From NCBI GenBank assembly GCA_949358305.1, contig OX442322.1:2418001-2482000 (forward strand): DNA of 64,000 nucleotides, read 5' to 3'. Each line of letters opens with the position of its first letter. Position 1 is the stretch's first letter. The DNA is from Strigamia acuminata. Its lineage: Eukaryota; Arthropoda; Chilopoda; Geophilomorpha; Linotaeniidae. Both the position numbers and the translations under genes were made by a program. The notes under the pieces were generated by a model that was given only the letters and a program-made list of their open reading frames with translations, was not told the DNA's origin and did no database searches. Positions 16,209-53,554 of the stretch are shown here, piece after piece.

Positions 16209-16363
16209 CACACGGGAAGTGTGAACGAGCTGGAAACGAAAAGGAATTGCCAAAAACAAGGGAACATTTAAATAAATGAATTTTTCGAGACGAAAGACGG
16301 AAAAACGAGGAAAAATCAGCGATACGCAGGACGACGATTTTTCTCAACCACACGTGAAGTGTG
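16209..16363 (+). other. Paired leader hairpins of copia B
   Basis: Two identical-stem hairpins, CACAC-GGGAA-GTGTG (16209-16223) and CACAC-GTGAA-GTGTG (16349-16363), lie in the untranslated leader (15853-16627). The first is also present in element C near 30675. The second is broken in C but present in the fragment near 60492. The role is unknown; RNA packaging or dimer formation would be typical for such leader structures. Confidence 0.5.
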
Positions 16364-16627
16364 ATTCAAAGCTGTCAGTACGAAACAAGCAATTAATCTA
16401 CAGCAGGAAGGCATCACATATGAACAATTTATTTCGTTTATTTCGTTATTATTGTTGAATACCATTATTAGTTTAGTGTTGTTAATAGGATACACTAACA
16501 TAGTATTAAGAGCGAACTAACATCGCAACACTGCACCCAGTTGCGATTACCAGTATTTCAAAGTGTTTTTGAGCAAATTTGTGCGTGTTTTTGCTGTGTT
16601 TTTCTGGTGTTGGACACTAAATTCACA

Positions 16628-19600: not shown

Positions 19601-21097
19601 ACCATGCATGAGCGCGAGGTTTGGGAACTTGTTCCACCACCGCCCAACACTAAGATAGTGGGTTGTAGGTGGATTTACACGACCAAACAGAACAAAGAGG
19701 GGGAGATTGCAAGTTATAAGGCGAGACTTGTCGCGCAGGGTTTCTCCCAAGTCTACGGCGAATCGTATGAGGAGACATTCTCACCCGTGGTAGACTTTTC
19801 AATCGTGCGCTTCATGTTCACGCTACTCGTCTGTATGCTCAAATGGTCGTACATTCAAGCTGACGTCAAGTGTGCGTATCTTTACGCAAAGTTGCATAAA
19901 ACCGTCTACATGCGACAACCAAAAGGTTTCATCATTGAAGGCAAAGAAAACTATGTCTGCAGACTCCTCCGAGCCATATATGGCTTACACCAATCTGGAA
20001 GAGAATGGGGAATAGAACTGGAGGAGACTTTGTTGAAACTAGGACTTGAACACGTAAATTGGTGCAATTGCGTCTATAAATACGGAGATATTGCGTATCT
20101 AATCGTCTACGTTGACGATATCGTTGTCTTTGGAAAGCAGTACGAAGATGCGATGAAAATACTCAACATGATTGGAACGCAATTTGATTTAGTGATACTC
20201 GGACAAACGAAAAAGTTGCTAGGAGTCGAATTTCATTCGCATCAACAACAATTGGTTCTTCACCAAAGGGCGTATGTGAACAAAGTGTTGTTAAAGTTTA
20301 AAAACCACTTGGAGCATGTGAAGATTCGATCTCAACCGATGACGAAAGCAACTGTTCTCACGAAACGAGATTGTTCAGACACAATTGATGATTTCAAAGC
20401 CATGGAAGGAATTCCATATAGAAGCTTACTTGGATGTTTGGCATTCATCGCGTCGAGGACAAGGCCCGACATGACTTATGCAGTGAACATCCTGAGTCAA
20501 TTCCAATCGAATCCAGGGTGGGATCACTGGATTGCGCTACTGGACTTACTCAGCTATTTGAGAACAACGAGAAATCACGGATTGATGTTGTTCCCGAATG
20601 ACCGGATCGAGGTAATCGGATACAGCGATTCCGATTATGCGAACAACAGAGATGACCGGATCTCCGTTGGAGGAACACTAGTGACTTTGGGTAGCACACC
20701 CATCTACTGGCGCACCTTCAAACAACGGAACGTAACATTGTCAACAATGGAAGCGGAGTACGTAGCCCTTACAGAAACTGTCAAGGACTACATCTGGATT
20801 GTTCGTGTTCTGCACGAGATATCCCCAGAGTTGGCTGGAAGATTCTCTCATTATGTCATGTGCGACAATATATCAACAGTGGACTTTACAAAATCTTGTG
20901 TTGAGAATAGAAAAACAAAGCACATTGACATCCGTTACCATTTCATAAGAGAACTTGTTAAAAGAGATAATCTTCTAATTGTTCATGTAGGCACGAAGTC
21001 CAATTATGCCGATATCTTTACTAAGTCGGTTGATAAGGCTGACTTGGTGAAGTTTTGCGATCGTTTCTTAGTTGACTTAAGCATTTTGCGTGCTTGA
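16628..21097 (+). CDS. Copia B Gag-Pol polyprotein, intact
   Basis: One frame of 1,489 residues encodes all functions needed for copying and integration. The start is taken at ATG 16628 (MDTEKLDRKITLLNRTNYDTW, the normal copia Gag opening); the frame is open further upstream but without ATG. In order: Gag; a CCHC knuckle CFRCNQPGHWARDC (about 17431); protease DTGATGHF (about 17617); integrase zinc head ending CDVCTLAKKK; core acids in LHMDVCGAF, RTDNGMEF and NGVSEKLNQT; RT with CRWIYTTKQ, ARLVAQGFSQ and YVDDIVVF (about 20107); RNase H with YSDSDYANN and STMEAEYVAL. No catalytic residue is missing. As in Drosophila copia, Gag and Pol share one frame. The sequence agrees with function, but expression cannot be judged. 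Confidence 0.96.
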   Translation: MDTEKLDRKITLLNRTNYDTWKQQIKVLLMHHGCWAFTDGTQEALAPGASWRDRSDFQLRKGRAFSLIYYAIEEQYHELLSGTEDAKTAWDTLKTNFEPVSRARIIRLLDEFFNLKYEPTTETIGVFAAKIRNAAKRLADVKHDLDNLYQAFQLIRYLPQEYQSIVQSIYRWDDEDFTLEKVEAELVAEEGRLAQQRRDSGQAPITDAFNMGTSTKNNDNSSKTQQQQGNSSQNSRGGQRGGKSNYRGGKNSRNFRGNTTGSSPWGPCFRCNQPGHWARDCTAQLPSNNSQNTNTAEELDTNMFDVGFLTELSEEEMLQCSAANNCWIYDTGATGHFCKDRNQFFNFKETTGTISQADKKTLIQIQGVGDVCVMSLVGNETIPITLKKVYYAPDMRRNLLSGPCIDEARCKVAVGSGLVKIYDPQWKRQLMEGVKKDRLYDIKLSDQKPDFEKLRQKANSKANVGEQKKQEPTNLTKNTTKSTSNPEEARLWHERLGHIYFPSVQAMSKGGAVIGLPILDVPITQCDVCTLAKKKAISHKSLPGIRSTEPLQLLHMDVCGAFSTPTLSGNIYFLTITDDFSRYSTVYLMKKKDEVFDIFQKHLKRIERLLGKSVLAIRTDNGMEFCSNKFGEYLQELGIAHERTNAYTPVQNGVSEKLNQTLANGMRALVYDAGLEHRFWGEAILTFNYLRNRIGKLNSDKTPMKLYYGRKPSLRHLRKFGSLCFVQKRIRDGKIDNKSLHGIMLGYSRITKGYRVWLPEFSKVIETSDVKFVESRRGVEGVLGLSEKYTTYIDNLDDNLDIDNERQYYSDEDVRPPLPPPVPVKKKEDPQLELPPVKLKFRLPDDKLRHNLPEVKLHGTLPQPGQGLLNPVPTIPALVWKKTEKVRPTGQRDVEYTIEGYDKPKLRSIPDVKRYCSDHNLRIPEHLFEDKRKKKPSESNTTADNLDVDFDDMNINFQANHLEVHVPVRYEEIATLPERNEWRQAMNDEIGTMHEREVWELVPPPPNTKIVGCRWIYTTKQNKEGEIASYKARLVAQGFSQVYGESYEETFSPVVDFSIVRFMFTLLVCMLKWSYIQADVKCAYLYAKLHKTVYMRQPKGFIIEGKENYVCRLLRAIYGLHQSGREWGIELEETLLKLGLEHVNWCNCVYKYGDIAYLIVYVDDIVVFGKQYEDAMKILNMIGTQFDLVILGQTKKLLGVEFHSHQQQLVLHQRAYVNKVLLKFKNHLEHVKIRSQPMTKATVLTKRDCSDTIDDFKAMEGIPYRSLLGCLAFIASRTRPDMTYAVNILSQFQSNPGWDHWIALLDLLSYLRTTRNHGLMLFPNDRIEVIGYSDSDYANNRDDRISVGGTLVTLGSTPIYWRTFKQRNVTLSTMEAEYVALTETVKDYIWIVRVLHEISPELAGRFSHYVMCDNISTVDFTKSCVENRKTKHIDIRYHFIRELVKRDNLLIVHVGTKSNYADIFTKSVDKADLVKFCDRFLVDLSILRA

Positions 21098-30337: not shown

Positions 30338-30342
30338 CAGAG

Positions 30343-31090
30343 TGACTGAAAAACATTTCAAGTCAATTAGAGGTGAAAAAGAAGGCGTTTTCCTCTAATT
30401 ATTCAAAATGGCGGCGCCCATGATAAAAGTGAGCAGCCTGTGTTTGTGCCAAGGATCCACGGTTTTAGGAGCAACTGTTGACCATCAAACAACGCAGGAT
30501 CACTAATTGGGTTCGGACTTTATTAAACATTTAATGAATAAGTTTTTTTTGGCCTTTTTCGGACGATTTCTCCGAATATCGCGAGGCGTGATACGTTCAG
30601 TCGACGTGTCGCTAATTTTCGTCGAGAAAACGACTCAACGAGAAATACGTGACGACGACGGCGCTCGACGACCACACGGGAAGTGTGAACGAGTTATAAA
30701 CGAAAAGGAATTGCCAAAAACAAGGGGACATTTAATGAATGAACTGTTCGAGACGAAAAGGACGGAAAAACGAGGAAAAATCAACGATACGCGAGAACGA
30801 CAATTTTTCTCAACCACACGTGAAAAAAGATTCGAAGCGGTCAACACAGAACAAGCGGTTAATCTACAGCAGGAAGACATCACACATGAACAATTTATTT
30901 CGTTTATTTCGTTTTTATTTTCGAATATCATTATTAGCTTAGTGTTGTAATAGGATACACTAACATAATACTAAGAGCGAACTAACATCGCAACACTGCA
31001 CCCAGTTGCGATTACCAGTAGTTGAAAGTGTTTTTGAGAGAACTAGTGTGTGTTTGTGGTATTTTTCGGGTCGAGGACATTGAATTCACA
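30343..31090 (+). other. Leader of copia C
   Basis: Matches the copia B leader from about 15885 to 16627, including AAAATGGCGGCG, the ATCGCGAGGCG block and the first CACAC-GGGAA-GTGTG hairpin (near 30675). The second hairpin has lost its right arm (CACACGTGAAAAAAG near 30815). No gene. Confidence 0.8.
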
Positions 31091-34000
31091 ATGGATGCGG
31101 AAAAACCAGAGCGCAAAGTGACACTTTTGAACAGAACGAACTATGACACGTGGAAGCAGCAAATCAAAGTGCTTTTGATGCACCACGGATGCTGGGCATT
31201 CACCAACGGGACACAAGAAGCGCTGGCACCGGGAGCATCTTGGCGGGATCGCTCGAACTTTCAACTGCGAAAGGGGCGAGCTTTCAGCCTAATTTATTAC
31301 GCCATTGAGGAGCAATATCACAAATTGCTCAGCGGGACCGAAGATGCAAAAACAGCGTGGGACACGCTGAAGACAAACTTTGAACCGGTCTCGAGGGCGA
31401 GAATAATACGCCTGCTGGATGAATTCTTTAGCTTAAAATACAATCCAGCAACGGAGACGATTGGCGTATTCGCGGCGAAGATACGCAATGCAGCAAAGCG
31501 ACTAGCCGACGTCAAACACGACTTGGACAATTTGTATCAGGCATTCCAGCTCATCCGATACCTGCCACAAGAATACCAGTCAATTGTGCAGAGTATTTAT
31601 TGATGGGAAGATAAGGATTTCACATTAGAAAAGGTGGAAGCGGAATTGGTCGCCGAAGAGGGCAGACTCGCGCAACAACGCAGAGATTCGGGCCAGGCGC
31701 CAATTATAGACGCGTTCAACATGGGAACAAACACAAAGAACAATGATAATTCGCCTAAATCCCAACAACAGCAAGGAAACAGCGGTCGAAATAGTCGTGG
31801 ATTTCAAGGCGGACAAAATCGTGGCAAATCAAATTATAGAGGCGGTAAAAATTCGAGAAGTTTTCGAGGAAACACGACCGGATCACCAGGACGGGAGCCG
31901 TGTTTTCGGTGCAATCAACCAGGGCACTGGGCGAGGGATTGCACAGCACAATTACCGTCGAATAACAGCCAGAACACGAATACTGTCGAGGAATTGGACA
32001 CTAACATGTTCGATGTCGGTTTTCTCACCGAGTTAAGCAAAGAAGAGATGTTACAGTGCAGCGCAGCCAACTACTGTTGGATCTACGACACCGGGGCCAC
32101 TGGACATTTCTGCAAAGACAGGAATCAATTTTTCAACTTCAAAGAAACCACAGGAACAATAAGTCAAGCGAATAAGAAAACTTTGATTCAAATTCAGGGC
32201 GTCGGGGACGTATGCGTGATGTGTTTGGTTAGATGTGAGACAATTCCAATCACATTGAAGAAAGTTTATTATGCGCCGGACTTGCGAAGGAATTTACTAT
32301 CGGGGCCGTGCATTGACGAAGCACGATGCAAAGTTGCCGTTGGCTCCGGACTGGTCAAGATATACGATCCTCAATGGAAAAGGCAGTTGGTGGAAGGCAT
32401 GAAAAAGGATCGATTGTACTACATCAAACTAAGTGACCAGAAGCCAGATTTTGAGAAATTGAGGCAAAAAGCGAATAACAAGTCGAATATTGGCGAAGAG
32501 AAGAAACAAGAACCAACTAATTCAACAAAGAACACATCCAATCCAGAGGAAGCAAGACTTTGGCATGAGCGGCTGGGCCATATCTATTTTCCGAGCGTGC
32601 AAGCAATGAGCAAAGGAGGTGCAGTAATTGGACTGCCATTTTTGGACGTGCCAATTACACAATGCGATGTTTGCACATTGGCCAAGAAGAAAGCAGTCTC
32701 TCATAAGACATTGCCTGGGATTAGATCAACAGAACCACTCCAATTACTACACATGGATGTATGCGGGGCGTTTAATACGAAAACACTCTCTGGAAATAAA
32801 TATTTCCTAACTATCACGGATGATTTCTCTCGTTATTCAACAGTTTACCTGATGAAGAAGAAAGATGAAGTGTTTGACATTTTTCAAAAGCACGTGAGAC
32901 GAATAGAACGATTACTTGGAAAATCGGTTCTAGCAATCCGCACGGACAACGGAATGGAGTTTTGTTCTAACAAGTTTGTAGAGTACCTCCAAGGACTAGG
33001 AATTGCCCACGAAAGGACTAATGCGTACACTCCTGTCCAAAATGGCGTTTCGGAAAGACTGAACCAGACATTGGCGAATGGGATGCGAGCGCTTGTCTAT
33101 GATGCCGGCTTGGAACATCGATTCTGGGGAGAAGCCATCTTGACTTTTAACTACCTCAGGAATAGGATCGCCAAGCTGAATTCGGACAAGACGCTAATGG
33201 AATTGTACTACGGACGCAAACCATCACTCAGACATTTGAGAAAATTTGGGAGTTTATGCTTTGTGCAGAAAAGAATTCGAGATAGCAAAATCGACAACAA
33301 GAGTTTGCATGGCATTATGCTCGGCTATTCGAGAATCACGAAGGGATATAGAGTATGGCTGCCGGAATTTTCCAAGGTTATTGAAACAAGTGACGTTAAA
33401 TTCGTAGAGAGCAGGCGCAGAGTTGAAGGCGTGCTGGGCTTACCATAAAAGTACACGACTTACATCAATAGTTTGGACGACAATTTGGACAATGATAATG
33501 ATCGCCAATATTATTCAGATGAAGACGTGAGGCTGCCACTACCCCCGCTAGTACCAGTTAAAAAGAAGGAGGATCCACAACTCGAATTACCTCAAGTCAA
33601 ACTGAAGTTTAGATTGCCTGAAGAGAAACTTCAAACCAATTTGCCAAATATTAGACCAGAAGTGAAGTTGCAGGGCACTTTGCCACAACCCGGACAAGTA
33701 CTTTTGAATCTAGTTCCAACTATTCCTGCACTAGTTTGGAAGAAAACGGAGAAGATCAGACCAACTGGACAGAAGGATGTCGAGTACACGATTCAGGGAT
33801 ATGACAAACCCAAGTTACGCTCAATACCGGACGTAAAGCGTTACTGTGCCGACCACAATCTTCATGTTCCTGAGCATCTGTTTGAGGACAAAAAGAAGAA
33901 AAAGCCCTCTGAATCGAATACGACGACAGATAGTTTTGACCTGGACTTTAATGATGTGAATATCAACTTCGAAGCCAATCATCTAGAAGTCCACGTACCC

Positions 34001-34280
34001 GTACGTTATGAGGAAATTGCGACTTTACCCGAAAAGAATGAATGGCGCCAAGCAATGAACGACGAGATTGACACCATGCATGAACGCGAAGTTTGGGAAC
34101 TTGTTCCACCACCACCCAACACTAAGATAGTGGGTTGCAGATGGATTTACACAACCAAACAGAATGAAGAAGGGGAAATCGCACGTTACAAGGCGAGACT
34201 TGTCGCGCAGGGTTTCTCTCAAGTCTACGGCGAATCGTACAAAGAGACTTTTTCACCTGTGGTAGACTTTTCAATCGTAC
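31091..34280 (+). pseudogene. Copia C gag-pol, first part
   Basis: Starts at ATG 31091 and follows the copia B protein closely: Gag, knuckle CFRCNQPGHWARDC, protease DTGATGHF, integrase with RTDNGMEF, the acidic linker, and RT up to FSPVVDFSIV, where element E interrupts. Two nonsense codons are present: TGA at 31601-31603, where B has CGA, and TAA at 33446-33448, where B has GAA. No frameshift. Otherwise similar to B in length and domain order. Confidence 0.93.
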
Positions 34281-34851
34281 TGTTACGTGGATTCTGGCCC
34301 TTTCTGACCGAGGTCCACATGACTGTTATTAAATGAGTGAGGGGAATGAATGAGGCGTTGTTTATAGTTTCAAATTCCAATCTAATCTTTATTAGATCGG
34401 ACAGACAAAGTCTGTTCGACCTTCATTAATAGTGCGCTTTACAAATCGAATAAATCATCATCAATAATCTTTGAATGAAATGGCATTTACATTATATTAA
34501 TTCAATACAATCAAACAAACACTTAACAACTGGGTGATAAATTATCTAAGTTAAATAAATGTCAAAAACCAAGTCGGCAGCCGTACTCGGTATCGAGCGA
34601 CATTAGACTGGTAAAGTAATTTGATGTTTCCTGTAAAGCAACATAAGATTAAGTGAGCTGTCTTAGAGTGGGTCAGTTCATAGGAAATCTCCTATTCTCC
34701 CCTTAATCAAATTGATCGGTCTAACAGATGACAATGACGGTTTCCAATCGCCACGCCATCTGTTGCCGAAATTTAGCAACACTAAACTAATAATAACTCA
34801 AATTGCGTGTTACGAATCGCGCATTAATCGACACAGTTCGTACACGTGACA
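34281..34851 (-). repeat. 3' LTR of gypsy E
   Basis: 571 bp; minus strand TGTCACGTGTACGAAC to CCACGTAACA. The purine-rich AGCAAAAAAGAGAGT next to it (34852-34866) is the likely polypurine tract. The first 50 bases recur at 42422-42471 with one difference. Confidence 0.92.
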
Positions 34852-35233
34852 ACTCTCTTTTTTGCTGTGATTTGGACCCCAAATTACAAATTTTGGTCCA
34901 GACAGGTCTCTTTTATAGTCGGACATTCTTAAGGAATGTTCGGTTGCTTTTTTTTTTTTTTTTTTTTTATAAGTTATCACTCAGTTGTTTTACAATTATT
35001 TCTCAAAATCAAAAGAAAATTTCACAATTTTTATATGTACTCCCTTTTAGTTTAATCTATACAGATCTTTTGTATTTCTATACTTTATTTTACATGTTCT
35101 CTGAAATGAAATGAAAAGTACAAGAATAAATCAAAACAAAATCAAACTTAAATTTCTTCGAAAGGTTCGAATTTTCCGTGCTGGATCTCGTACAGGATTC
35201 GAACTCGCAATTCCGAGCCTTCCGCTAACTTCA

Positions 35234-36592
35234 TCAGGTCTCGGCACTCAACGTATCTACGAGCAAAATGTCCGCAGCAAAATGCCCGCAGCTGTCCCCA
35301 TCGAGCTGGGCTGCTTTTGGTGGTTCCCATGGCTCGTAACTCGGTATTTCGTATCCAGAACCTATTAAATTGAGTTTAATATTACACCACCACGTGAAAT
35401 GATCCACGTGTGGCTTTCCCGACGAGTCGTAGAACCCCACACACGGTGGAGAACGCTCCATATCAAACACATATATGATCCAGTGTTCTTCCGCCGGTAT
35501 GGGGAAGAACCAGATCTTGTGCTGCTTTGTTGGTTGGTCAACTTGGTCACGGAACCATCGCCATGTATTGGGTTTATCCTCGCCTTTCATTAATTTCGCC
35601 ACGGTTGCCACTGGAAACGCATAAACTATTGGATATCGCTTCATCAACATACCCAAATAATAATCAACCACCGTGTCGTGAACCCAAGATATGCGGCCTG
35701 GCATCAATGCTCCTAAAGAGATCATTTCTCTAGGGCCGACCGCGATGTGTGGTCGCACTTCCGACACGTACATTTGCTCATCCGGGTGATGTTGAAAATA
35801 TTCCGGCCATTTCTCCAGGGCTTCCATCGCTTTATCTGCAGGAATCTTGACTTCATAGTCCACTGGTGGTAACGGTAGGTTGATTCGCGGATCATAAAGC
35901 GCTGTTCTTTTCCCTAATTCTTTCGCGCGATCCACTTTATTACGAATCTTCGCTTCTTCCAGAATCAATACCTGCGCCTCCTGCTTATAAGCTTGAAAGA
36001 TCGGTCGTCCTTCCGCGCCCTTCGGTTGAAGAGGAATGACCGCCGCCGCTAGATTTCTCCGTTCAACGTTAATCTCCAGCAAACGACGGAAATTTCTCCT
36101 CACCGCTCGCTGAGACTGCTCTCGAATAATTTTCAAACCCCTTGGTGTTAATTTCTTTTTCTCGATACCTTCAGTTTTACGACGCAAGGTTCTATTTCGC
36201 TTACGTCGGTCCTGACGGTTTTTCTTTTTAATATACTTCGGGTCGTTTGGATCTAGCATCATTGGTGGCTGGCTATGACCTTTCTTACGTCTGTTGGTAA
36301 ATGGGCGCTCGAACTGGACTATGTCTTCCAATTTAATCGTTTTACTGGTACCCGCTGTTGGATTGTTCAGGTCTATACTCCTGTCGTACCAGTTCCACAT
36401 GGCCATCGGGTCGATCTCTACTTCAGCTTGATCAGGCATTACGTCGTTTAAGCCCGTTGACTCTTCAGTTGGTTCAATCGGCTCAACTTCAATTGGTTCG
36501 GTTGGTTCGTATTCTGGTATTTCAAACTCGTCGCTCTCATCTGAGCTCGAATGGATGTCCATCCTGTCGAATTTGCTCGCCATATTTTCCAT
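35234..36592 (-). CDS. Ulp1/SENP-like (C48) cysteine protease of gypsy E
   Basis: A 452-residue frame from ATG 36592 (MENMASKFDR). Family members process or remove ubiquitin-like modifiers such as SUMO. The N-terminal 100 residues are acidic and Pro/Glu-rich, followed by a Lys/Arg-rich block at about 100-190. The C-terminal 155 residues match the C48 fold: ISWVHDTVVDYYLGML near 301 (compare the W-L-x-D-x-V-I-x-x-Y motif), EEHWIIYVFD with catalytic His370, FYDSSG with Asp389, Gln429, and DGDSCGHFAADILL with the nucleophile Cys435. All catalytic positions are filled. It ends about 380 bp before the 3' LTR and follows pol after an 890-bp AT-rich gap, so it may be made from a spliced or separate RNA. 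Family assignment is confident; function in the element is not known. Confidence 0.88.
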   Translation of the reverse strand: MENMASKFDRMDIHSSSDESDEFEIPEYEPTEPIEVEPIEPTEESTGLNDVMPDQAEVEIDPMAMWNWYDRSIDLNNPTAGTSKTIKLEDIVQFERPFTNRRKKGHSQPPMMLDPNDPKYIKKKNRQDRRKRNRTLRRKTEGIEKKKLTPRGLKIIREQSQRAVRRNFRRLLEINVERRNLAAAVIPLQPKGAEGRPIFQAYKQEAQVLILEEAKIRNKVDRAKELGKRTALYDPRINLPLPPVDYEVKIPADKAMEALEKWPEYFQHHPDEQMYVSEVRPHIAVGPREMISLGALMPGRISWVHDTVVDYYLGMLMKRYPIVYAFPVATVAKLMKGEDKPNTWRWFRDQVDQPTKQHKIWFFPIPAEEHWIIYVFDMERSPPCVGFYDSSGKPHVDHFTWWCNIKLNLIGSGYEIPSYEPWEPPKAAQLDGDSCGHFAADILLVDTLSAET

Positions 36593-37512
36593 TTGACGGT
36601 CCTTCGCACTGTCACTAAGCACTGAACGATTCCAACCTACTTATGAAGAAAATAAAACAAAACAAAATAAAATTAAATAATATCAACTATATTATGCCTA
36701 ATAAATAAAATTATTCCTATTGTAGATAAATATTCCATAATAAACTTCAAACTTCTAACAATTCCTAAAAGAATTTCAAATTAATTAAATTTTTCTTTCA
36801 TTTTTCAAGTTTTCTTTAAAAAATCATTAATATTTTCAAAAACAAACATCAACTCATTCCATTTTACTTATTTACAATAAATTACTCTTATCAAAATTCA
36901 ATCAAATTTCCATCGAAAAATATTTACATTCATCAGACTTATTCAATTTTAACAAAATTCGCAATGAATTCACTTATCGCGTCTCGAATCATTCGTGTTG
37001 TTAGAACTAAATTTTCCAAATTTTCTCTTTGAAATTTATTTTTAATTTACTCTGCTATGCTATTAAATTCAGCATTTTATAATTTTAAAACTTTACCTAA
37101 ATTATTAAGCCTAATTAAAATTCAATGCAGATGAACGAAGATCGCGTTGGGTCCTTTCGCGTCCCCGCCATTCGCACTTTCATTACTTCTTATTTATGCT
37201 TTAAAATCATTTTATTTCACACTAATGTGTCATTAAATTTTACTCCTAATTATTTAAAGTTTTAGTTTAAAACATTTTCACCTAATTAAAATTCTAACAT
37301 GAATGAACGAACATGGCGATTAGTTTCACTTTACGAAAATCGCTCAAAAAACGTTTAAAACCTCAAAATTCATCTCTAAAATCACTTAAAATTATCAATA
37401 TCATTCGTACAAACCTTTTGAAACACAATATCATACACAAAATATAAATAAATAGACAAAAATGATTTTGTTTCCGGGTCACACTATGAGTTCGTGTTCA
37501 CCGTAGCAAGAA
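36593..37512. other. AT-rich spacer of gypsy E, no gene
   Basis: Very AT-rich sequence between pol and the protease gene of element E. No reading frame or repeat family recognised. It could hold the splice acceptor or internal promoter for the downstream gene, but nothing decisive is visible. Confidence 0.5.
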
Positions 37513-40500
37513 TCAGTAGTAATGGCGATAATCTTTTCGTTTCTGCGGTCTGAGTTTGCGCGACCGGAAATCGTTTTTTTGTGTATTTGCGCCATCTTGT
37601 GGCGGATTTTTAAGTTGATTTTCATTAGTTCCTATCAAAGGCTGTGGTTCAAATAGCGATTTTAATGAGATTTGTTCTGTATCGTCTATATAACGTTCTC
37701 TTGGTTTGATTTTCATTATTTCGACTGGTTTTTCGATGTTTTCTTCTACAATTTGTCCTTTTCTACTGATTTTCTTTACTTTATCAGCAAATTTCACTTT
37801 CTTTTCTGGTAATTCTTTCAAAACTTCGTCTATTTCTGGTTCAACTCGTTCTTTATACGGTTTTAATCTTTCTACATTCACTATATCACTTTTCTTTCTT
37901 GTTGAATTGATTATTTCATAATCATTCAGTGCAGTTCTTCGCACAATTTCATATGGGCCGGAAAATTGCGGTAAAAGCTTCTCTGACAAGCCAACTTTTC
38001 TGTTGATGGTTTTCAGATACACCAATTCACCTGGTTCAAACTCTTTGTTGACTCTATCTTCATCAAACCTTTTCTTGCTTTTTGCTGATTGCTTTTCAAG
38101 CCTCTCATTTGCAATTTTCCTGGCCGCTCAAATGAATTTCGCTGTTCTCAAAGTAAACTCTTTCTGTGGCAAATCCAAATTTACATCTACTGTCAAATCC
38201 ACATCATATCCTCGTAAAAGATAATGTGGTGTATAACCTGTTGTTTCATGAACTCCCGTGTTATACGAAAACAGAAGAAATGGAAGAAATTCGTCCCAAT
38301 CAGTATGTTCTTCATTAACGTAACTTTGCAACATTTTTGCGAATGTCGCGTTAAATCTCTCAGTTAATCCGTTTGTTCTTGGATGATATCCTGACGTAGT
38401 TTTATGCAAACTTTTAAACATATTTGAGACTTCCTCAACCATTTTATTCCTGTATTCTGTTCCACGGTCACTTAAGATCTCTCTTGGACTGCCTTCTTTC
38501 AGAATTACTTCATAAAGCAATGTTTTTGCTGCTTCTAACGCTGTAGCTGCTGCTGCTGGTCTAGCTATTGCATTTCTCGAAAGATAATCGGTCACAACAA
38601 AAACATGTTTATTTCCAAGACGTGATAATGGAAATGGTCCAAGTGTATCTATTCCAATTCGCTCAAAAGGCTTTGAAACTGTTGACCATGGCTGCATTAG
38701 TCCTTTCGCTGGTGTAGTCATCGTTTTTGCTTTCGCGCAACTTTGGCAGGACAAGACGTAATTTCTAACGTCCCTATAAATTCTTGTCCAAAAGAATCGT
38801 GTTCTTATTCGTTTCCATGTTTTTGCCAAACCTAAATGAGCTCCTAGTAATCCATCATGCATTTCGTATAATACATCTGTCTGAAGTTGTTTTGGAACTA
38901 CTAGTAACAAATCTTCCATGTTCAGGGAACTGTTTAGTTTTTTCTTCCTGAACAACGTTTTGTTTTGAAGAACGAACTGCTTTAGAGGTCGTCTTCTTTT
39001 TCTTGGAAGTTGCTCTTGGTTTTCTAGCGCTGTTATGAGGTCCAGAAGTTTAGGATCCTTCCTCTGCTCAGCAGGGAGGTCCAAATTTTCCAAGAGAAGC
39101 GAAGGCAATTTTTGGATGTCTTCTTCACTTAACTCTTCCTGGATCCTACTCAGGGCATCAGCATCTGTGTGCTTCTTGCCACTTTTATGAAATATTTCAA
39201 AATCATACTCAGCTAGTTGCAGCGCCCACCTGGCCAGCCGTCCATTTGGATTTCGGACTCCTTTCAGCCATTGGAGGGCAGAATGGTCGGTAATAATTTG
39301 GAATTTCTGTCCATATAAGTACGGTCTAAACTTTTCAATAGCAAAAATGATTGCTAACATTTCCCTTTCAGTTGCAGTGTAATTCATTTCTGCTGTGCTC
39401 ATCATACGACTTGCATAAGCGATGGCACGCTCTTGATTGTTGACTTTTTGCTTCAAAATAGCTCCTAATCCATAAGCACTTGCATCGCATGAAATCATGA
39501 AGGGCTGAGTAAAATCTGGATGCACTAACACCGGCACTGTTATTAATGCTGTTCGAAGCGTGTGGAATGCTTTTTCATGGGGAGGTCCCCAATCAAACTT
39601 TTCATCCTTTTTGGTTAAATTCACCAGAGGTTTGGAAATGTCCGCAAAACCTTTAATAAATTTCCGGTAATACGAGCATAATCCAAGAAAACCACGTAGT
39701 TGTTTAACGTTTACAGGAATTGGAAACTTAGCTACTGAATCCAGATTCCTGGGATCCGGTGAAATACCTTCAGCATCAACCACATGTCCGAGGTATCGTA
39801 TGGTGTGTGTCGCAAACGTACATTTACTCAGTTTGACTTTTAAATTCGCTGCTCTTAGCTTTTCGAAAACTGCCTCCAAATCGACGAGGTGCTGGTCAAA
39901 AGTCTTTGAAAACACTATCAAATCGTCAAGATATGTTATACATACTTTTCCCAGGAGATTTCCAAGCACTTTGTTCATCAATTTTTGAAAGGCGGCTGGG
40001 CTGTTACATAATCCCATTCCAAGGACATTAAACTCATAATGTCCGCTAGACGTGGTGAACGCTGTTTTTTCACGATCTTGTTCGTCTATTTCGACTTGGT
40101 GATATCCCTGAATGAGATCCATCATTGAAAAATACTTTGCACCCGCTAGCTGATCTAGGGTGTCATCTATACGCGGTAAGGGATACACCATTTTCTTTGT
40201 CACTGCATTCAAACGTCTCCAATCTACACAAAATCTCCATTTGCCGTCTCTCTTCTTGATGAGTAGTACTGGTGCACTCCATGGGCTCTCGGATTCTCTA
40301 ATGACTCCTTGCTCAAGTAACTTCTTTGTTTCAGCATCCTCGATTTCTTTTTCCTTAATTGATCGTCTATAAGGTTGTAAATGAATTGGAGGAGAATCTC
40401 CAGTATCTATTCGATGCCTAATCGTGTGAGCTCTGCCTAAATCATTGTCAGTCTTCGCAAATCTATCTGAATTTTTCTTCAACAATTGTAGCATCAGCTC

Positions 40501-41318
40501 TTGTTGTGATGGCGTCATATTGTCATTTGCCATAGACGTGCTAAAGTCAAAATGATCATCTCTTTTTTCATCAAGCACGCCCGACTCAATTACATAAAAA
40601 GCTTTTGCAATTGCTGAATTACGTCCTAAATAGATTGTCTTTTTAGTCGGATTTGCAACTCGCAGAACTCCTTCACCTTTTCTGAATTTGGTCAATGTTT
40701 TGCAGCAAATCACTCCAAATCGATCTACTACTCCACTAAGTGGTTCAATAAATAATTCATCATCTACTTTCTTTGCAATTTTTATTGGTACTATACATTC
40801 ATGTAAAGCTGGTATAGTAATAGGTTTCAAAACTCGAGCTATGTAATTTTGATCGGTATGATTTTTAGACATTGGGAAAATTTCTTGTTGTTCATCTTTT
40901 GGGCCTACAAAGATCTTCTGGTGGTCGTAATCAAGTTTACACCTCGCAGATGTCAGAAAGCTATGTCCAAGCAGTAAATGGTGGCCAAATCCGTTGACGA
41001 TCAGCACTTCAATGGTGTGTTGCTGTTGTCCAACGTCAATAGTGATCTTGGTTTTTCCTTCTGGGATTATTATTGAACCATCTACAACCCTAAGTCGAAT
41101 GTATGGACATGGTTGATATTTGAGCTGCAATGTTCTTACCAAATCTTCATTAATAATATTACGATAACCTCCAGAATCCAAGACACCTGTTATCTCCATA
41201 CCATTCACCACTACCGGAATTTGCAAAAGTTCATCTGTGGCGTTCAACTCAATAATTTCTAATTTCCTTTTTCTTCTTCTCTTCTTTTTGTTATTTCGTC
41301 TTTGTGGCCATTCTAGTT
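37513..41318 (-). pseudogene. Gypsy E Pol: protease, RT, RNase H, integrase (one TGA)
   Basis: Lies in the -1 frame relative to gag and is reached through the heptamer at 41316-41322; the first residues after the shift are strongly basic. Protease has GVLDSGGYRN (DSG active site). RT has VCITYLDDLIVFSK, RNase H has ISCDASAYGLGAIL and later TATEREMLAI. Integrase has a zinc head ending SCQSCAKAK and core acids in IGIDTLGPF, LSDRGTEY and TNGLTERFNA. An in-frame TGA at 38128-38130 interrupts between the core and the C-terminal GPY/F part (PQFSGPYEIVRR). The frame then continues to 37513, ending with a basic tail. The only visible lesion is that TGA. Confidence 0.9.
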
Positions 41319-41322
41319 TCCC
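41313..41322 (-). promoter_or_regulatory. -1 ribosomal frameshift site of gypsy E (G_GGA_AAC TAG)
   Basis: On the minus strand the end of gag reads TCG GGA AAC TAG. The heptamer G_GGA_AAC (41322-41316) has the X_XXY_YYZ form used for -1 frameshifting by retroviruses, and pol is exactly in the -1 frame. No strong downstream hairpin was found by eye. Confidence 0.75.
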
Positions 41323-42421
41323 GATGCATTAGGTGGTCCACCACGTGGGGCTCCTCGATTTCCTCGGCCTCGGTAATTTTCAATAAAATTTTTACCTTTA
41401 TAGTTTGGATTTTTAGGATGACCTTGGTTATTTGGATTTCCCTGTTGTCTTTGACCTTGTGGTGGGTTCCTTTGCTGTTGTGGCGGATTCCATTGCTGTT
41501 GTGGATATTGTTGTTGGAATCCTTGACCTGAATTATTCCACTGATCATTCCAATTACCTCTGATTTGACCTCTATTGTTCCATCCTCTACCTTGGTTCCA
41601 ATTATTGTTATTATTCCACCATCCTCGTTGTTGTCCAGGTCGTCCTCTAAAGTTACCTCTATTGTAGAACTGACCCTGGTTTGGATGTGGCGTATACCAT
41701 TGATTTTGGTAGAAGACTGGCGTAACCTCTGCATATTGGACATCCCCAAACTGCTGCTGTTGTCTTAGCACTTTGACCTCTGCTAACAACTCGTCTTTTG
41801 TTTTATTGACGTCGCTTGGTTCTACCGAGCAACTCGGTGTCACCTTGCTAGGTGTATCAACAGCTTTTTGCAGTAGGGTTAATAAAACTTCTGCAGGGTC
41901 CTCATTGAATGCATGAGCTTCCAATAACCCAAGTTGAGATGTTAGTTGATCCAACGTCTTTGGAAAGTTGACTACTAATTTATCTCTAGTCGCCTTTTTA
42001 AGTGTCTGAAACACATGAAATATCTTTTGCTCTTTAGTGAATGATGGTCTTGCAAAAGAACATTCTTTTAGTATCTTCTGCATGTGTTCCAAAGCTGTTC
42101 CATCCTTGTGCTGCATTGCTTGTAACTTCGACAGTATTGTTGTTATTTGTCGTCTAAACTTAGTCTTCAACGCATCTTTCCATTGTGTCCATGTTCTAGT
42201 CGGATACAGTGGAAGTTGATCTAAATACCATGAGGATGCGGAAGATTTCAGCACAATTGACAGATGTTTAATACGTTCAGTATCATCGGTGATCGTATCT
42301 TCATATCCGATCAACCATGTGTCAATATTTCCTGTAGCCGGATCAAAATCAACTGGATTTCTTCTATTGACCACTAAGTTTTGTAACACTGTCTGTATTG
42401 CTACCAGTTCTGATGATGGCG
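41313..42421 (-). pseudogene. Gypsy E Gag, 5' truncated
   Basis: The frame has no ATG; it runs open into the LTR stub, so the start was lost with the leader. Ty3-type Gag capsid region: ATGNIDTWLIGYED, SSASSWYLDQLP, and WTQWKDALKTKFRRQ. The C-terminal 130 residues are rich in Asn, Gln, Gly and Arg (for example GWWNNNNNWNQGRGW and RGRGNRGAPRGG). No CCHC knuckle is visible, so RNA binding would rest on the RG-rich tail. It ends GNAAC-equivalent codons then TAG, where the last bases form the slippery heptamer G_GGA_AAC. Confidence 0.87.
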
Positions 42422-42471
42422 ATTGCGTGTTACGAATCGCGCATTAATCGACACGGTTCGTACACGTGACA
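42422..42471 (-). repeat. 5' LTR stub of gypsy E
   Basis: The first 50 bases of the LTR (minus strand TGTCACGTGTACGAACCGTG onward to ACACGCAAT). They are fused directly to gag coding sequence and abut the duplication GTAC. U3 remainder, R, U5, primer site and leader are missing. Confidence 0.87.
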
Positions 42472-43137
42472 GTACGCTTCATGTTCACGCTACTCGTTTG
42501 TATGCTGAAGTGGTCGTACATTCAGGCCGACGTCAAGTGTGCGTATCTTTACGCAAAATTGCATAAAACCGTCTACATGCGTCAGCCAAAAGGTTTCATT
42601 TCTGAAGGCAAGGAGAACTATGTCTGCAGGCTCCTCCGAGCTATATTTGGCTTACACCAATCTGGAAGAGAATGGAGAATAGAACTGGAGGAGACTTTAT
42701 TGAAACTAGGACTTGAACACGTGAATTGGTGCAATTGTGTCTATAAATACGGAGATATTGCGTATCTAATCGTCTTTGTAAACGATATTGTTGTCTTTGG
42801 GAAGCAGTACGAAGACGCGATGAAAGTACTCAACATGATTGGAACGCTATTTGATTTAGTGATTCTTGGACAAACGCAGAAATTATTGGGAGTCGAGTTG
42901 GTTCTTCACCAAAGATCATACGTGAACAATGTATTGTTAAAGCTTAAGAACCACTTAGACCATGTGAAAATTTGATCTCAACCAATGACGAAAGCAACTA
43001 TTCTCACAAAACAAGATTGTCCGAACGCGATCGATGAATTCAAAGCTTTGGAAGGAATTCCCTATCGAAGTTTACTTGGATGTTTGGCATTCATCGCGTC
43101 TAGAACAAGGCCCGACATGACTTATGCGGTAAACATC
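42472..43137 (+). pseudogene. Copia C gag-pol, second part (RT)
   Basis: Resumes at RFMFTLLVCMLKWSYIQADVK, exactly where the first part stopped, and runs to RPDMTYAVNI. The catalytic site YVDD of copia B is here FVND, which would abolish RT activity. A TGA lies at 42973-42975, where B has CGA. A short in-frame loss occurs near GVELVLHQR. It ends at the F insertion (CATC duplication). Confidence 0.92.
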
Positions 43138-48339: not shown

Positions 48340-49261
48340 AGAAGTAGCTAATGCTACATCGGAGACTTTATTTATGGATGTAGACACTGCTTGTCTAGAC
48401 ATAGCCACTAGTCATAGTGGCGGAGTGGATGAAAATCTGCAAAAAATGACAGAACAATTAAAGAATCTGACATTGTTTCCACACAAGTGCTACACGAAGA
48501 AATTCTGTAGACTTCGCCGACTCAACAGAGTCATAGGTGGTAATAATTTGCACAATATTACTTTAGGTAATAATAAAGATGATCCTCGAATGAAGATCAC
48601 AATTGGTGGACTCACCTACAACGCGCTCATGGATACAGGAGCATCTCAATGTTACATTGGGGAGCAACTTTTGTCTGAAACCCAGGCTCTGCCGGAATTC
48701 TTACAAGAGGCTCCCCGAAACATGATGGTTAACGCTGTAGGCGTAGCACACAAGCCTGTCGGACGAATAACTTTGTGCGTGCAATGGGCTGATGAATTTA
48801 CACCAATGAATTTCATCGTTTTAGCAAAACGAGTTTGTGGCTTGATACTTGGTCACAATTTCATGCGCAGACAGAAAATTAGTCCGCATCCACATTTACA
48901 AGAATTCTCTTGTGCAGATAAACCCAATTGGTCCGCCCCTTATGAGTCGGAAGAAGCCAATTTGGCTCTTGCCCCGTTAAATCGAATTACTTTCGATTAT
49001 TTAGGACTGTCGTCCACTCTCAACTCAATTGAGTTAACAGACACTCCTGTGTTGACTTGGGATGAAAAATTAGTTGAGGAGAGCGACTGCACTCCAGAAC
49101 AACGACTAGCACTTCGCGAAGTGGTTAACTCAATACCGAATGTATTTCGTGATCAAGTTGGGTGCACTAACGTGACCCAGCATCGTATTAAGTTCAAAGA
49201 AGGGCATTCATTGCCCAAAATGCAGTATAGAATGTATAACCCGGCCAGAGAGCCATTATGA
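48305..49261 (+). CDS. Gypsy F protease region
   Basis: Reached by -1 frameshift from gag; the ATG at 48374 is probably internal. The aspartic protease site is ITIGGLTYNALMDTGASQCY (DTGA) and ILGHNFMRR marks the end of the domain. It continues to the beginning of RT (SLPKMQYRMYNPAREPL) and stops at TGA 49259-49261, which overlaps the ATG of the next frame as ATGA. Because the RT fold starts before this stop, the frame break probably reflects a one-base loss or another recoding step. Confidence 0.85.
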   Translation, partial: LDPGDEGLFHPPEVANATSETLFMDVDTACLDIATSHSGGVDENLQKMTEQLKNLTLFPHKCYTKKFCRLRRLNRVIGGNNLHNITLGNNKDDPRMKITIGGLTYNALMDTGASQCYIGEQLLSETQALPEFLQEAPRNMMVNAVGVAHKPVGRITLCVQWADEFTPMNFIVLAKRVCGLILGHNFMRRQKISPHPHLQEFSCADKPNWSAPYESEEANLALAPLNRITFDYLGLSSTLNSIELTDTPVLTWDEKLVEESDCTPEQRLALREVVNSIPNVFRDQVGCTNVTQHRIKFKEGHSLPKMQYRMYNPAREPL

Positions 49262-52200
49262 CCAAGCTAGCTGCAGAATTGGAACAGGATGGACTCATTG
49301 AAAAGGCCAAAGGGCCTTTTATAAGTCATCCAGTTATCGTTGCGAAGCCTGACGGCTCGTATAGGATGTGCATTGACTACCGGTGGCTGAATGCCATCAC
49401 CGAAGTCGAAGTAATACAAATGCCTAGCATTGACCTTTTATTACATAATACTGGTCCGGCAAAGTATTTTACGTCCATTGACCTTGTCAAAGGTTACTAT
49501 CAAGTCGAAATGTGTGAGGAAGATCGTCCAAAGACGGCCTTTTATACACCAAATGGTCCATATCAATTTGTGCGAATGCCATTTGGCCTTTGCAATGCGC
49601 CTTGTACTTTCCAGCGACTGATGGAAGGCATTTTAGGCTCAGCTTTGCAAGACTACGCGTTAGTTTATTTGGATGATGTAATTGTGTATTCAGATAATTG
49701 GGATGATCATCTCAAACATGTTCGAGACGTTTTAGAAAGGCTTAACCAAGCCAACATGACAATAAATAAAGCAAAATCTCGTTTTGGCCGCACAGAATTA
49801 AAATTCTTGGGTCATTGGATCAAACCCGAAGGTCTCTTCGGTGATCCCGATAAAATATCGGCAATCATGAAGTTTCCCACCCCCACGTGTGCTAAAGACA
49901 TTCAGCGCTTTCACGGCATGACCAACTTCTTCAGGAAGTTCGTTCCAAATCACGGAACTATTGCCGCGCCATATACACGTATGATGAATGAGAAAACTCC
50001 ATTTGAATGGGGAGATGAGCAGACAGAAGCTTTTAATAAAATTAAAGAGCTACTTTGTGGCGACAATTGTCTACACAAACCAGACATGACTCTGCCATTT
50101 GTCGTCATGACTGACGCTTCACATGAAGGCTTAGGAGCTGTCCTCTGCCAAGACGTCGATATATTCGACAAAAAGAAACAGAAAAACATTTCTGTACCCA
50201 GACCTGTGGCTTACGCAAGCAGAGTTTTACGTGGAGCCGAGAAGCGTTATACAACGCCAGAACTCGAATGTCTCGCAGTCGTGTGGGCTATTGATCGATT
50301 TAAACCATATCTCGAATATGGTACGTTTACTTTGGAATCAGATGCTGAAGCACTGAAATGGTTGATGCGAACGCCTGAACCATCTGGGAAATTTGGCCGA
50401 TGGGCCTTAAGAATCCAATGTGGAAATTTTAAAATTGTTTTTCGAAAAGGTGCTGCTAATCAAGTTGCAGACGCACTTTCTAGAGCCCCACTGACAGAGG
50501 AAGACATTCCTCTTCGAGATCATGTGGAACCTGTTGAAATTAAACAATACTGGCCTGAGTGGGACGGAAATCCTTCTGTTTCATTAAATCGTGCCCCAGA
50601 GAAACGAGAATATTTGGCTAGTGTGCGTGTCCATTTTTCAGAAAATTCTAAAGAATGTTCTGAAGAAAGGGAGGGGGAGGAAGTACAAGAAACCTTGTAC
50701 AGTGCGTTGACTGAAGTACTTAAAGAAGTCCCTCCTACAAGGAGAGAAATAATAGATGCTCAGTTGCTAGATACTGAATGCAAACGCATTCGAGAATATT
50801 TATTAAATGACAAGGTTGTTGGGATACCACAATCTGAAATAAAAGAATGGAAAAACAAAGTCAAAAACTATTGTTTAGACAAAAAAGAAGTTGATGGTGA
50901 TCAAATGATCATCTATTTTAACCCTTCGTTCGAAGAGGAATTAAACGATTCGGGAAATGGCTTTAAAGCCGTTGTACCCAGTGCACTCGTAAAACGAGTA
51001 CTCTTCGCTTGTCATGGCCACCCCCTAAGCGGTCACGCTGGGATGAGTAAGACGCTCGAAAAAACGCGTTTAATATATTTCTGGCCTGGTATGAGTAGAA
51101 GTGTCAGGAACTACGTCAAAAGCTGCACGCACTGTGCCCAGTACAAGCCTATTCAACAGAAAAGGCACGCAGCTCCTTACACACCGCACAACATGACCAA
51201 TCCTTGGGAATGTATTAACATGGACTTGATGGGCCCAAAACCCGCGGGAAGGTCCCAAAACCAGTATATATTTGTCATTATTGACAATTGTACCAAGTTC
51301 GTTGAAATTAAGGCTTTGACAAAAGCCACGAGCGCTAACTGCGTTCAAGAATTAAGATCTGTTACAAACAGATGGGGACACCCCAAAAAGATTGTGAGCG
51401 ATAACGGAAAACAATTTGTTTCCGATATTTACAATGAATATTGCGAAATGTATAACATTCGCCCGGCTCACACGAGCACGTACCATGCCCAGGCGAACCC
51501 GACAGAGCGAGCCAATAGGGACATCAAGACCATGCTGGCTCTGTACACAGATGTGCACACGCAATGGCCGCGTTATTTAGACGAATTTGCGTTTGCAATG
51601 CAAAATAATGTGTCATCGGCAACGGGATCAAGCCCGATGCTGCTTAACACGGGAAGGATCGTAACATTACCTTTCGACCCAAGGATTGTTAAACATGCCA
51701 ATCCATTTGACAAAGAAAACCCAGAAAAATATGTCAAAGTACTATTAGATATATTACGTAGATCGCATCAAGAGATGCATCGCAGAATTCAATTGAATTT
51801 TGAACGACATCGAAAAATACACGAACAAAAGTTCGTAATTACGGAGTTCGAAGTTGGAGATTTAGTTTGGAAACAGACTCACATTCTCTCGTGCGCAGAT
51901 AAAAATATCTCCGCTGGATTTGCCGAGAAGAGAGATGGACCGTGGGAAATTACTAAAGTACTTCCTGGCGGAGCGTATAAATTACGCAAATTAGCTGACG
52001 GTTCGATTGAAAAATCAGTAAATATTAAAGCGTTGTATCCCTATACTCCGTCGTACCCGATTGAGACTTGGAAAATAGGACAAAAGTCCGCCTCTTACTC
52101 GCCTCAAGAAAATCCTAAATGGATGGACGAAAGTAATCAACTTCCGGATGCTGAAGAAATGGAATTAATTCCTGAAACTTCCTCAGAAATTCCAATGGAA

Positions 52201-52503
52201 TTGTCCGACTCAACTCCAGTGCAGATTGACAAATCTGCACCCACAAAGTCTAAATATAGACATAAACAACGCTTAACTGCTATGGAAAGGAAAGCGGCGT
52301 TGAAAAGAGGCGAAGTTCCAAAGAAACCGCCTCGAAAACCCCGCAAACCCCAACCGATAGTTCCGCGAACTAGCACTCGTCCACAACGAGAACGAAAACC
52401 AAATCCTAAATATGCAGATGAAAATTTCGTGCGAAACATCACTGCAGTATTTAAAAAACCATATCAACAACGAGGAAAAGCCTCAAAGTTCTGTTGGAAT
52501 TGA
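49258..52503 (+). CDS. Gypsy F RT, RNase H and integrase
   Basis: 1,081 residues. RT: DGSYRMCIDYRWLN, FTSIDLVKGYYQV, and the active site YALVYLDDVIVYS. RNase H: VVMTDASHEGLGAVL, then TTPELECLAV and LESDAEALKWL. Integrase: zinc head ending SCTHCAQYK; core acids in INMDLMGPKP, VSDNGKQF and ANPTERANRD; C-terminal part GDLVWKQTH, then RDGPWEITKVL. It ends with a strongly basic tail (RKPRKPQPIV, RPQRERKPNPKY). All catalytic residues are present. Its start overlaps the protease frame by ATGA. Confidence 0.94.
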   Translation: MTKLAAELEQDGLIEKAKGPFISHPVIVAKPDGSYRMCIDYRWLNAITEVEVIQMPSIDLLLHNTGPAKYFTSIDLVKGYYQVEMCEEDRPKTAFYTPNGPYQFVRMPFGLCNAPCTFQRLMEGILGSALQDYALVYLDDVIVYSDNWDDHLKHVRDVLERLNQANMTINKAKSRFGRTELKFLGHWIKPEGLFGDPDKISAIMKFPTPTCAKDIQRFHGMTNFFRKFVPNHGTIAAPYTRMMNEKTPFEWGDEQTEAFNKIKELLCGDNCLHKPDMTLPFVVMTDASHEGLGAVLCQDVDIFDKKKQKNISVPRPVAYASRVLRGAEKRYTTPELECLAVVWAIDRFKPYLEYGTFTLESDAEALKWLMRTPEPSGKFGRWALRIQCGNFKIVFRKGAANQVADALSRAPLTEEDIPLRDHVEPVEIKQYWPEWDGNPSVSLNRAPEKREYLASVRVHFSENSKECSEEREGEEVQETLYSALTEVLKEVPPTRREIIDAQLLDTECKRIREYLLNDKVVGIPQSEIKEWKNKVKNYCLDKKEVDGDQMIIYFNPSFEEELNDSGNGFKAVVPSALVKRVLFACHGHPLSGHAGMSKTLEKTRLIYFWPGMSRSVRNYVKSCTHCAQYKPIQQKRHAAPYTPHNMTNPWECINMDLMGPKPAGRSQNQYIFVIIDNCTKFVEIKALTKATSANCVQELRSVTNRWGHPKKIVSDNGKQFVSDIYNEYCEMYNIRPAHTSTYHAQANPTERANRDIKTMLALYTDVHTQWPRYLDEFAFAMQNNVSSATGSSPMLLNTGRIVTLPFDPRIVKHANPFDKENPEKYVKVLLDILRRSHQEMHRRIQLNFERHRKIHEQKFVITEFEVGDLVWKQTHILSCADKNISAGFAEKRDGPWEITKVLPGGAYKLRKLADGSIEKSVNIKALYPYTPSYPIETWKIGQKSASYSPQENPKWMDESNQLPDAEEMELIPETSSEIPMELSDSTPVQIDKSAPTKSKYRHKQRLTAMERKAALKRGEVPKKPPRKPRKPQPIVPRTSTRPQRERKPNPKYADENFVRNITAVFKKPYQQRGKASKFCWN

Positions 52504-53554
52504 TAAGTTTTATTCAAAACTCGGAGACTGTAATTATTTACATGTCTGACAGGTGTAGTGATTTATAATCTCAACACCGGGGGACAAGATATTACGATAT
52601 TTATCAAAATTTATATTAAAAAATATGAATTTGTTGCGATGAATTAAATATTCGATAGAATATTTTAGTTTTGGTCGTATTTATATGTATTTTAACCAAA
52701 ATACAGAGAATTACTTTGAAAAAGTGATAATCTCGCGTAATTACGAAGGTACGAGACTTACGAGGTGTGATTAAACCTCGAACCCGACAATTAATAGGGA
52801 ATAAAATTCCCAGGGTTCAATGCACACAAACACTTCGTTAAACACACGGATACTAGTGACTTCGTCCCTTCGACCCGTCTTCACTTTTCAACTCAGAAAT
52901 TCAACGCTAATTCATTTAGCCGACTTCAAGCAAAGAAAACTAGCTTCAACAGTAAGTAGTTTTCGAAATTGTTCTTTGACCAAAGAATTACAAAAAAATT
53001 GTTCGCAACAATTGAAAAATATCGGCGTCTCGATAGAAAGTTAGAAGTTCACGCGTTATTATAAGCGTGAATAGGCATTAAATCACTCTGGAAGTTTAGC
53101 TATTCAGTCGAATAGTTTAGTTTAGATTTTGATAATGAATTATTAAAATTTCAGTATGTAGGCACTAATTATTTAAATCAAGTCGCGGTCGAGGCTTGTA
53201 TAAATTATTTAGCGGTGAATTTTCAATTTGAAACATTCGGTGTATTAAGTGTTAATTTAATTAATACAAAGGTTCATTCTGATATTCGAAGATTGGATGG
53301 AATAGTTTATAAAACTAAGAGAATTTTTCTTTTGAAAAAATCAACAAGTTCGATGAAAATCGTTGTCAGACGAGTCCATTCTCATGTCATAAACATAAGG
53401 GGAATGTGACTCATTAATGTCACGTGTTAAGGGTTATAAATAACTCGAGTTGTGTGTTTCGTTGCGAACAATACATTTTAATTCTTTGGACTCAAGGAAT
53501 GATTATTTCAAAGTGGAATTATTTTTAATAAATTAATTTATTTTGATTAATCAG
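52504..53554. other. Spacer between pol and the extra gene of F
   Basis: About 1 kb, AT-rich, without a convincing gene. It ends with TTTATTTTGATTAATCAG directly before ATG 53555, which looks like a splice acceptor (T-rich tract then CAG). If used, the downstream gene would be expressed from a spliced RNA, as retroviral env is. Confidence 0.5.

Follow-up and report, generated by a model that had tools for sequence, protein, structure and literature searches.

A predicted C48-like protease gene between pol and the 3' LTR of Ty3/gypsy retrotransposons in Strigamia acuminata

In both flies and yeast, SUMO has a part in silencing transposons. The env-bearing gypsy elements (errantiviruses) carry an ORF after pol, which is expressed by splicing. 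In yeast, Ty1 RNA rises when Ulp1 is untethered from the nuclear pore, and likewise on loss of Ubc9 or of Siz1 and Siz2 (PMC8585004). Domains of the Ulp1/C48 type occur in several DNA transposons, namely the MULE/Vandal KIU elements, Ginger1 and oomycete Cryptons (PMC13317346, PMC2836005, PMC3212892). The Ulp1-bearing KIU Vandals escape silencing; the Ulp1 domain's own role in this is not established (PMC13317346). The LTR retrotransposons of bdelloid rotifers have an enzymatic ORF3 encoding a GDSL or DEDDy enzyme, with ORF types common to several families (PMC5408684); the terms 'ulp', 'sumo' and 'c48' are absent from the main text of that paper.

Here we describe element E, a Ty3/gypsy retrotransposon whose third ORF is predicted to encode a C48-like protease. 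Like the Ulp1-bearing DNA transposons, E is a mobile element carrying a C48-type domain. In Ginger1 this domain is fused to the transposase, whereas in E, an LTR retrotransposon, it has an ORF to itself; E has LTRs and a reverse transcriptase, in contrast to the terminal inverted repeats and reverse-transcriptase-free transposase of Ginger1. Like the bdelloid LTR elements, E has a non-envelope enzyme ORF after pol, although the enzymes differ. Unlike errantiviruses, it has a predicted protease in place of the glycoprotein. C48 domains in DNA transposons and enzyme-coding third ORFs in rotifer LTR elements were already known; searches of the open-licence PMC literature turned up no C48-like ORF3 under selection in Ty3/gypsy elements.

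Element E and its third ORF

The window, by which we mean the whole 64-kb stretch analysed (C13:2418001-2482000), contains E nested within a copia element (Table 1). The copia flanks (30338-34278 and 42472-43137) are uninterrupted in a copia paralogue at 15876-20491, which represents the empty site, and the ends of E are bordered by a 4-bp target duplication, GTAC, where the paralogue reads GTGC. E has the TG..CA LTR ends, the 4-5 bp target duplication and the polypurine tract of LTR elements, and the domain order PR-RT-RH-IN of Ty3/gypsy, with Pfam matches in pol to RVT_1 (1.2e-37), RT_RNaseH (3.7e-39), Integrase_H2C2 (5.1e-21) and gag-asp_proteas (3e-8). Its main damage is an internal deletion, which left 50 bp of the 5' LTR and took the remainder together with the leader and, probably, the start of gag. 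The tRNA primer-binding site is also gone from this copy. From the deletion onwards the gag frame is open, including across the junction, and pol contains a single in-frame stop at codon 1040 of 1245. An AT-rich spacer (25% GC) follows pol and precedes ORF3. Rfam and tRNA scans of the whole 64-kb window gave no matches.

Table 1. Coordinates of element E and its parts within the window
Feature	Position	Strand	Basis
Element E (Ty3/gypsy), bounded by TGT...ACA, inside a copia element	34282..42471	-	copia flanks and target duplication
5' LTR remnant, 50 bp	42422..42471	-	98% identity over 50 bp to start of 3' LTR
gag	41313..42389	-	Ty3_capsid E 8.3e-6, 25.8 bits, under cut-off of 29.1
pol (aspartic protease, RT, RNase H, integrase)	38128..41247	-	Pfam; in-frame stop at end
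pol C-terminal part (integrase C-terminal domain), past the stop, same frame	37513..38025	-	Integrase_p58_C 1.6e-7; frame offset 0
Pyrimidine-rich tract + AG, acceptor-like, just 5' of ORF3	36623..36680	-	sequence read
ORF3, 452 codons in window copy	35234..36592	-	ATG 36592, stop ends 35234; between pol and 3' LTR
C48-like catalytic domain (W303, H370, D389, Q429, C435)	35237..35764	-	PDB, profile and alignment matches
C-terminal end of C48-like domain, in another frame	35151..35246	-	near-identical residues close ORF3 in L002-L011
Polypurine tract preceding 3' LTR	34852..34864	-	sequence read
3' LTR, 570 bp	34282..34851	-	E-like LTR match near ORF3 in 25 of 30 loci

The preliminary description of this DNA had reported a 452-residue frame on the gag-pol strand between pol and the 3' LTR, with a W-h-x-D-x-V motif and the C48 residues H370, D389, Q429 and C435, and all of this was confirmed; the motif reads W-V-H-D-T-V, with its Trp at W303. 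It had also seen a hint of constraint in an active site that is intact while its neighbours have decayed, and of this the catalytic residues were confirmed. The window ORF3 is a damaged copy: its frame breaks directly past the catalytic Cys-Gly and reaches a stop 17 codons beyond the Cys, whereas the sister copies L002-L011 continue in one unbroken frame to ...GKFEPFEEI (490-496 codons from stop to stop, against 468 in the window copy). L002, which lies 70 kb from E, is 99.6% identical to it over 3284 bp of the 3' part. Decay of the neighbours is not much more advanced, with one in-frame stop in pol and a gag frame that is open past the deletion, and the argument for constraint from this copy fails; the evidence for constraint comes from other copies. 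Taken alone, the out-of-frame tail has no PDB or Pfam match, and its score against a C48 profile is weak (5.9 bits, reached by 7 of 5000 shuffles and tied by 1 of 4663 background pieces). That the tail belongs to the C48-like domain was settled by the sister copies, which read through it.

Relationship to Ulp1/SENP proteases

Comparison with known proteins indicates that ORF3 encodes a divergent C48-like (Ulp1/SENP-type) cysteine protease. The protein has an acidic N-terminus and a basic middle (18 K+R in residues 121-160), followed by the C48-like catalytic domain. When the whole protein was compared with PDB using phmmer, SENP2 matched at 2.5e-4 and 13 of the 16 matches at E<=10 were SENP/Ulp1 proteins, the other three being ribosomal eS6 on the basic stretch. 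With the C-terminal 176 aa as query, all 13 matches were SENP/Ulp1 (best 4.3e-5), and the reversed domain, as a control, drew one unrelated match at E 0.9. A C48 profile built with the query left out scored 32.5 bits on ORF3, compared with 4.2 for the best of 500 shuffles and 6.7 for the best of the other stop-free stretches in the window. A profile of the ORF3 family matched SENP1 in PDB at 1.8e-10, with an alignment that reaches the end of the SENP1 chain.

The C48 assignment thus held in the PDB and profile comparisons but not in Pfam, where Peptidase_C48 (PF02902) gave no match to the window copy at E 1 or E 10. Seven of nine ORF3 family members match PF02902 at E<=1 (best 9e-4; L033 and L043 do not), and three members, with bit scores of 14.2, 14.4 and 15.3, fall under the curated cut-off of 20.7 bits. 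It is because this cut-off is not reached that we use the name 'C48-like'. ORF3 shares with the Ulp1/SENP proteases (family C48, clan CE) the W-h-x-D motif, the catalytic H, D and C in order with the oxyanion Q, the Gln-to-Cys spacing, and a family profile that matches SENP1 across the domain. It differs from them in being element-borne, in having its own N-terminal part of ~280 residues, in its low identity to C48 relatives (20-30%), and in reading Q-L-D-x-D-S-C-G-P in place of N-G-x-D-C-G. The N and D of the latter motif are invariant in 99 C48 relatives, and with both altered before the Cys the specificity of ORF3 may differ from SUMO.

Protein-database searches with the window ORF3 returned no relatives at E<=0.001 among 4554 candidates and none at E<=10 among 74, viral contigs gave no relatives, and a domain tree of E with the 99 C48 relatives put E on a saturated branch and did not pick out a donor. 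Single-sequence structure prediction was of no use (pLDDT 39). In fold searches with a model whose alignment used SENP relatives, and which is therefore partly circular, SENPs ranked above viral clan CE proteases, and the hits also included Den1, XopD and bacterial deubiquitylases that share the fold.

The env position of ORF3 and the acceptor-like tract before it might recall an envelope gene, with the likeness to C48 arising by chance. Errantivirus Env has a transmembrane segment, and ORF3 has no transmembrane-like stretch (highest 19-residue hydropathy 1.03); together with the profile match across the catalytic domain, this refutes the envelope reading, to which we give almost no credence.

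Copies of ORF3 across the genome

The species' own assembly (237.5 Mb, 157 contigs) has 54 matches to PF00379, a domain typical of arthropod cuticle proteins, in keeping with an arthropod host. A search of it with ORF3 returned at least 95 matches, of which the fuller ones fall at ~93-100%, 59-64%, 55-57%, 47%, 36-39% and 33-36% identity to the ORF3 of E. Thirty-six of the 44 loci examined, the window copy counted, have one uninterrupted frame of 400 codons or more, and the other eight are broken or partial. ORF3 keeps its place and its linkage to pol and LTR, and almost all open copies examined preserve the catalytic residues, with D, Q and C present in 36/36 and H in 32/36, while in the W-h-x-D motif W is kept in 36/36 and D in 24/36. 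Among 30 loci with 1.5-kb flanks, the end of pol lies upstream of ORF3 in 22 and an E-like LTR match lies nearby in 25. Collinear copies exist beyond the window, since all of the best 11 ORF3 places (window copy included) have a same-strand pol match within 5 kb upstream. The stretches upstream of five more divergent ORF3 copies were also read: three of them (L050, L051 and L052), from three divergent families, hold an open pol frame 70-74% identical to that of E, and the other two (L053 and L054) show no pol match in 5.2-5.3 kb. A T-rich tract with AG precedes the ORF3 start in all five families inspected, and this acceptor-like tract suggests that ORF3 may be produced from a spliced subgenomic mRNA.

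L024 (893-3361) reads LTR - partial ORF3 - LTR, with no pol-end match, and is an internally deleted copy that has retained ORF3. L033 (272-1594 (-), C3:31483517) stands alone at about 47% identity to E among the matches listed; its 441 codons are open with H-D-Q-C kept, there is no pol match in 5.2 kb upstream, and it is possibly a domesticated gene.

ORF3 is under purifying selection. Estimated by NG86, with bootstrap intervals for single pairs, dN/dS lies far under 1 (0.06-0.16) in each of the three families that allowed a calculation: the E family gave 0.084 over 45 pairs, the 61% family 0.158 over 28 and the 39% family 0.058 over 6, compared with 0.062 for pol (one pair). No ratio is given for pairs whose dS is past the NG86 range, including the pooled 33-36% family, and the pair L001/L002 (0.71) was left out since the shifted tail of the window copy inflates dN. 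Single pairs gave 0.036 (0.012-0.073) for L002/L003, 0.132 (0.089-0.189) for L016/L017, 0.046 (0.024-0.070) for L034/L036 and 0.091 (0.024-0.194) for L043/L044; the N-part of L017/L024 gave 0.339. For L039/L040 (0.317) and L041/L042 (0.368) there are few changes and the intervals extend over 1. With collinear copies and low dN/dS, the preliminary description is supported in assigning a C48-like protease gene to a Ty3/gypsy element, and was mistaken in taking the window copy as intact.

These results bear on whether ORF3 is a functionless passenger, derived from a host SENP gene that a single copy of the element picked up. Its third-position GC of 0.48-0.51, against 0.28-0.33 in gag-pol, and a 21-base A-run downstream would fit such an origin. 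The passenger reading is nevertheless refuted by at least 95 matches in several families with dN/dS far below 1, and the 20-30% identity and saturated branch also count against it; we regard it as very improbable. An origin as a retrocopy was likewise rejected, as no target duplication adjoins the A-run.

Four open copies lack the catalytic His and form two small groups, with Ser in L026/L027 and Arg in L031/L032. Their dN/dS values are 1.15 (0.57-2.53) and 0.78 (0.26-3.29), respectively, and no pol or LTR match was found within the 1.5-kb flanks of L026/L027 or in the stretches read around L031, including 5.3 kb upstream. Element-linked copies thus hold the triad under constraint, and orphan copies seem to drift. 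The two groups, their frames still open, could also be cited for a different reading, in which ORF3 targets a different ubiquitin-like tag, namely Nedd8 or ubiquitin, or keeps the fold mainly for binding. The changed N and D before the Cys and the appearance of Den1, XopD and bacterial deubiquitylases in the fold search lean the same way. However, the nearest sequences are SENP1/2 and Ulp1, D, Q and C are retained without exception, and among the His-less copies L026/L027 and L031 have no pol or LTR match in the stretches read, so that we consider this reading unlikely.

Exchange, loss and a possible role in trans

The divergence of ORF3 is decoupled from that of pol. Between the L002/L049 and L025/L048 elements, pol differs by a dN of 0.024 and a dS of 0.389, whereas in ORF3 dN is ~0.27-0.31 and synonymous sites are saturated; beyond ORF3, the sequence running up to the LTR and into it is 82-90% identical. 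Because a higher rate of protein change would not in itself bring synonymous sites to saturation, we infer that ORF3 has been replaced by recombination between element families, as an exchangeable cassette.

ORF3 has also been deleted repeatedly. Among the matches listed, the 5 kb downstream of pol include an ORF3 match in 13 of 44 close copies and none in 31, pairing being scored against all 95 listed ORF3 places. Downstream of seven ORF3-less pol copies, L045 and L046 share the same deletion junction and L061 and L062 show two further distinct ones with LTR sequence retained; in L047, L063 and L064 the stretch leaves the element too early to place a junction. L045 and L046 differ by about 13-15% in sequence despite their shared junction, and an ORF3-less lineage therefore seems to have amplified. 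The ORF3-less copies imply that ORF3 is not needed in cis.

This last point weighs against the idea that the protease is directed at proteins of the element itself, stripping SUMO from Gag or integrase or maturing them in the particle. Clan CE proteases carry out such maturation in some DNA viruses, viral members appeared in the fold searches, if below the SENPs, and ORF3 is still linked to gag-pol in several families. Yet pol already encodes an aspartic protease, a lineage seems to have amplified without ORF3, and the basic segment would suggest the nucleus or nucleic acid as the site of action. We judge action on the element's own products improbable.

The account that we favour, with a confidence about evenly balanced between belief and doubt, is that ORF3 is a long-resident accessory gene of this Ty3/gypsy lineage in the env position, encoding a deSUMOylase-like anti-silencing factor that acts in trans. 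ORF3 would be made from a spliced subgenomic RNA, and its product would enter the nucleus through the basic segment and act on host repressors of the element by removing SUMO or some similar modifier, thereby weakening SUMO-dependent silencing. The preliminary description had supposed that the element may remove SUMO from host factors, or from its own Gag or integrase, to evade silencing. Action in trans would explain both the existing ORF3-less copies and at least one ORF3-less lineage that has seemingly spread beside carriers. More tentatively, and with doubt outweighing belief, gypsy elements here may share and exchange an anti-silencing deSUMOylase-like cassette that serves ORF3-less copies in trans and diverges under pressure from SUMO-dependent silencing, an animal counterpart, in a retrotransposon, of the plant KIU Vandals. 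If true, a retrotransposon equipped with a deSUMOylase-like enzyme of its own would let the contest between retroelements and SUMO-dependent silencing be tested directly, and the carriers, repeatedly deleted copies and His-less orphans form a natural comparison set.

Several other elements in the window and genome were noted in passing. A second gypsy element in the window (pol at 49258-52503 (+), 38% identical to E pol over 413 aa) also has an extra ORF after pol, at 53543-54646 (+), in a layout as in E. This ORF is CxxC-rich, has no match in Pfam, PDB or NCBIfam, and has a GC3 of 0.58 against 0.38 in its pol. A copia pol fragment at 8411-9316 (-) bears a methyl-CpG-binding domain (PF01429, 5.6e-8) just 5' of the RT, which was absent at E<=1 from the two other window copia ORFs scanned, and a DNA polymerase B fragment (PF03175, 7.8e-11) at 3106-3786 (+) is perhaps a Polinton-like remnant. 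Elsewhere, two 1828-codon open frames with a C48 domain and no other assignment lie at C1:22252003 and C1:33635212, part of one having been read (L060 1-4077 (+)). Six further places carry a 1075-codon open frame with equal C48 score, and the one examined (L059 2839-6063 (-)) matches MULE transposase, Peptidase_C48 and PHD.
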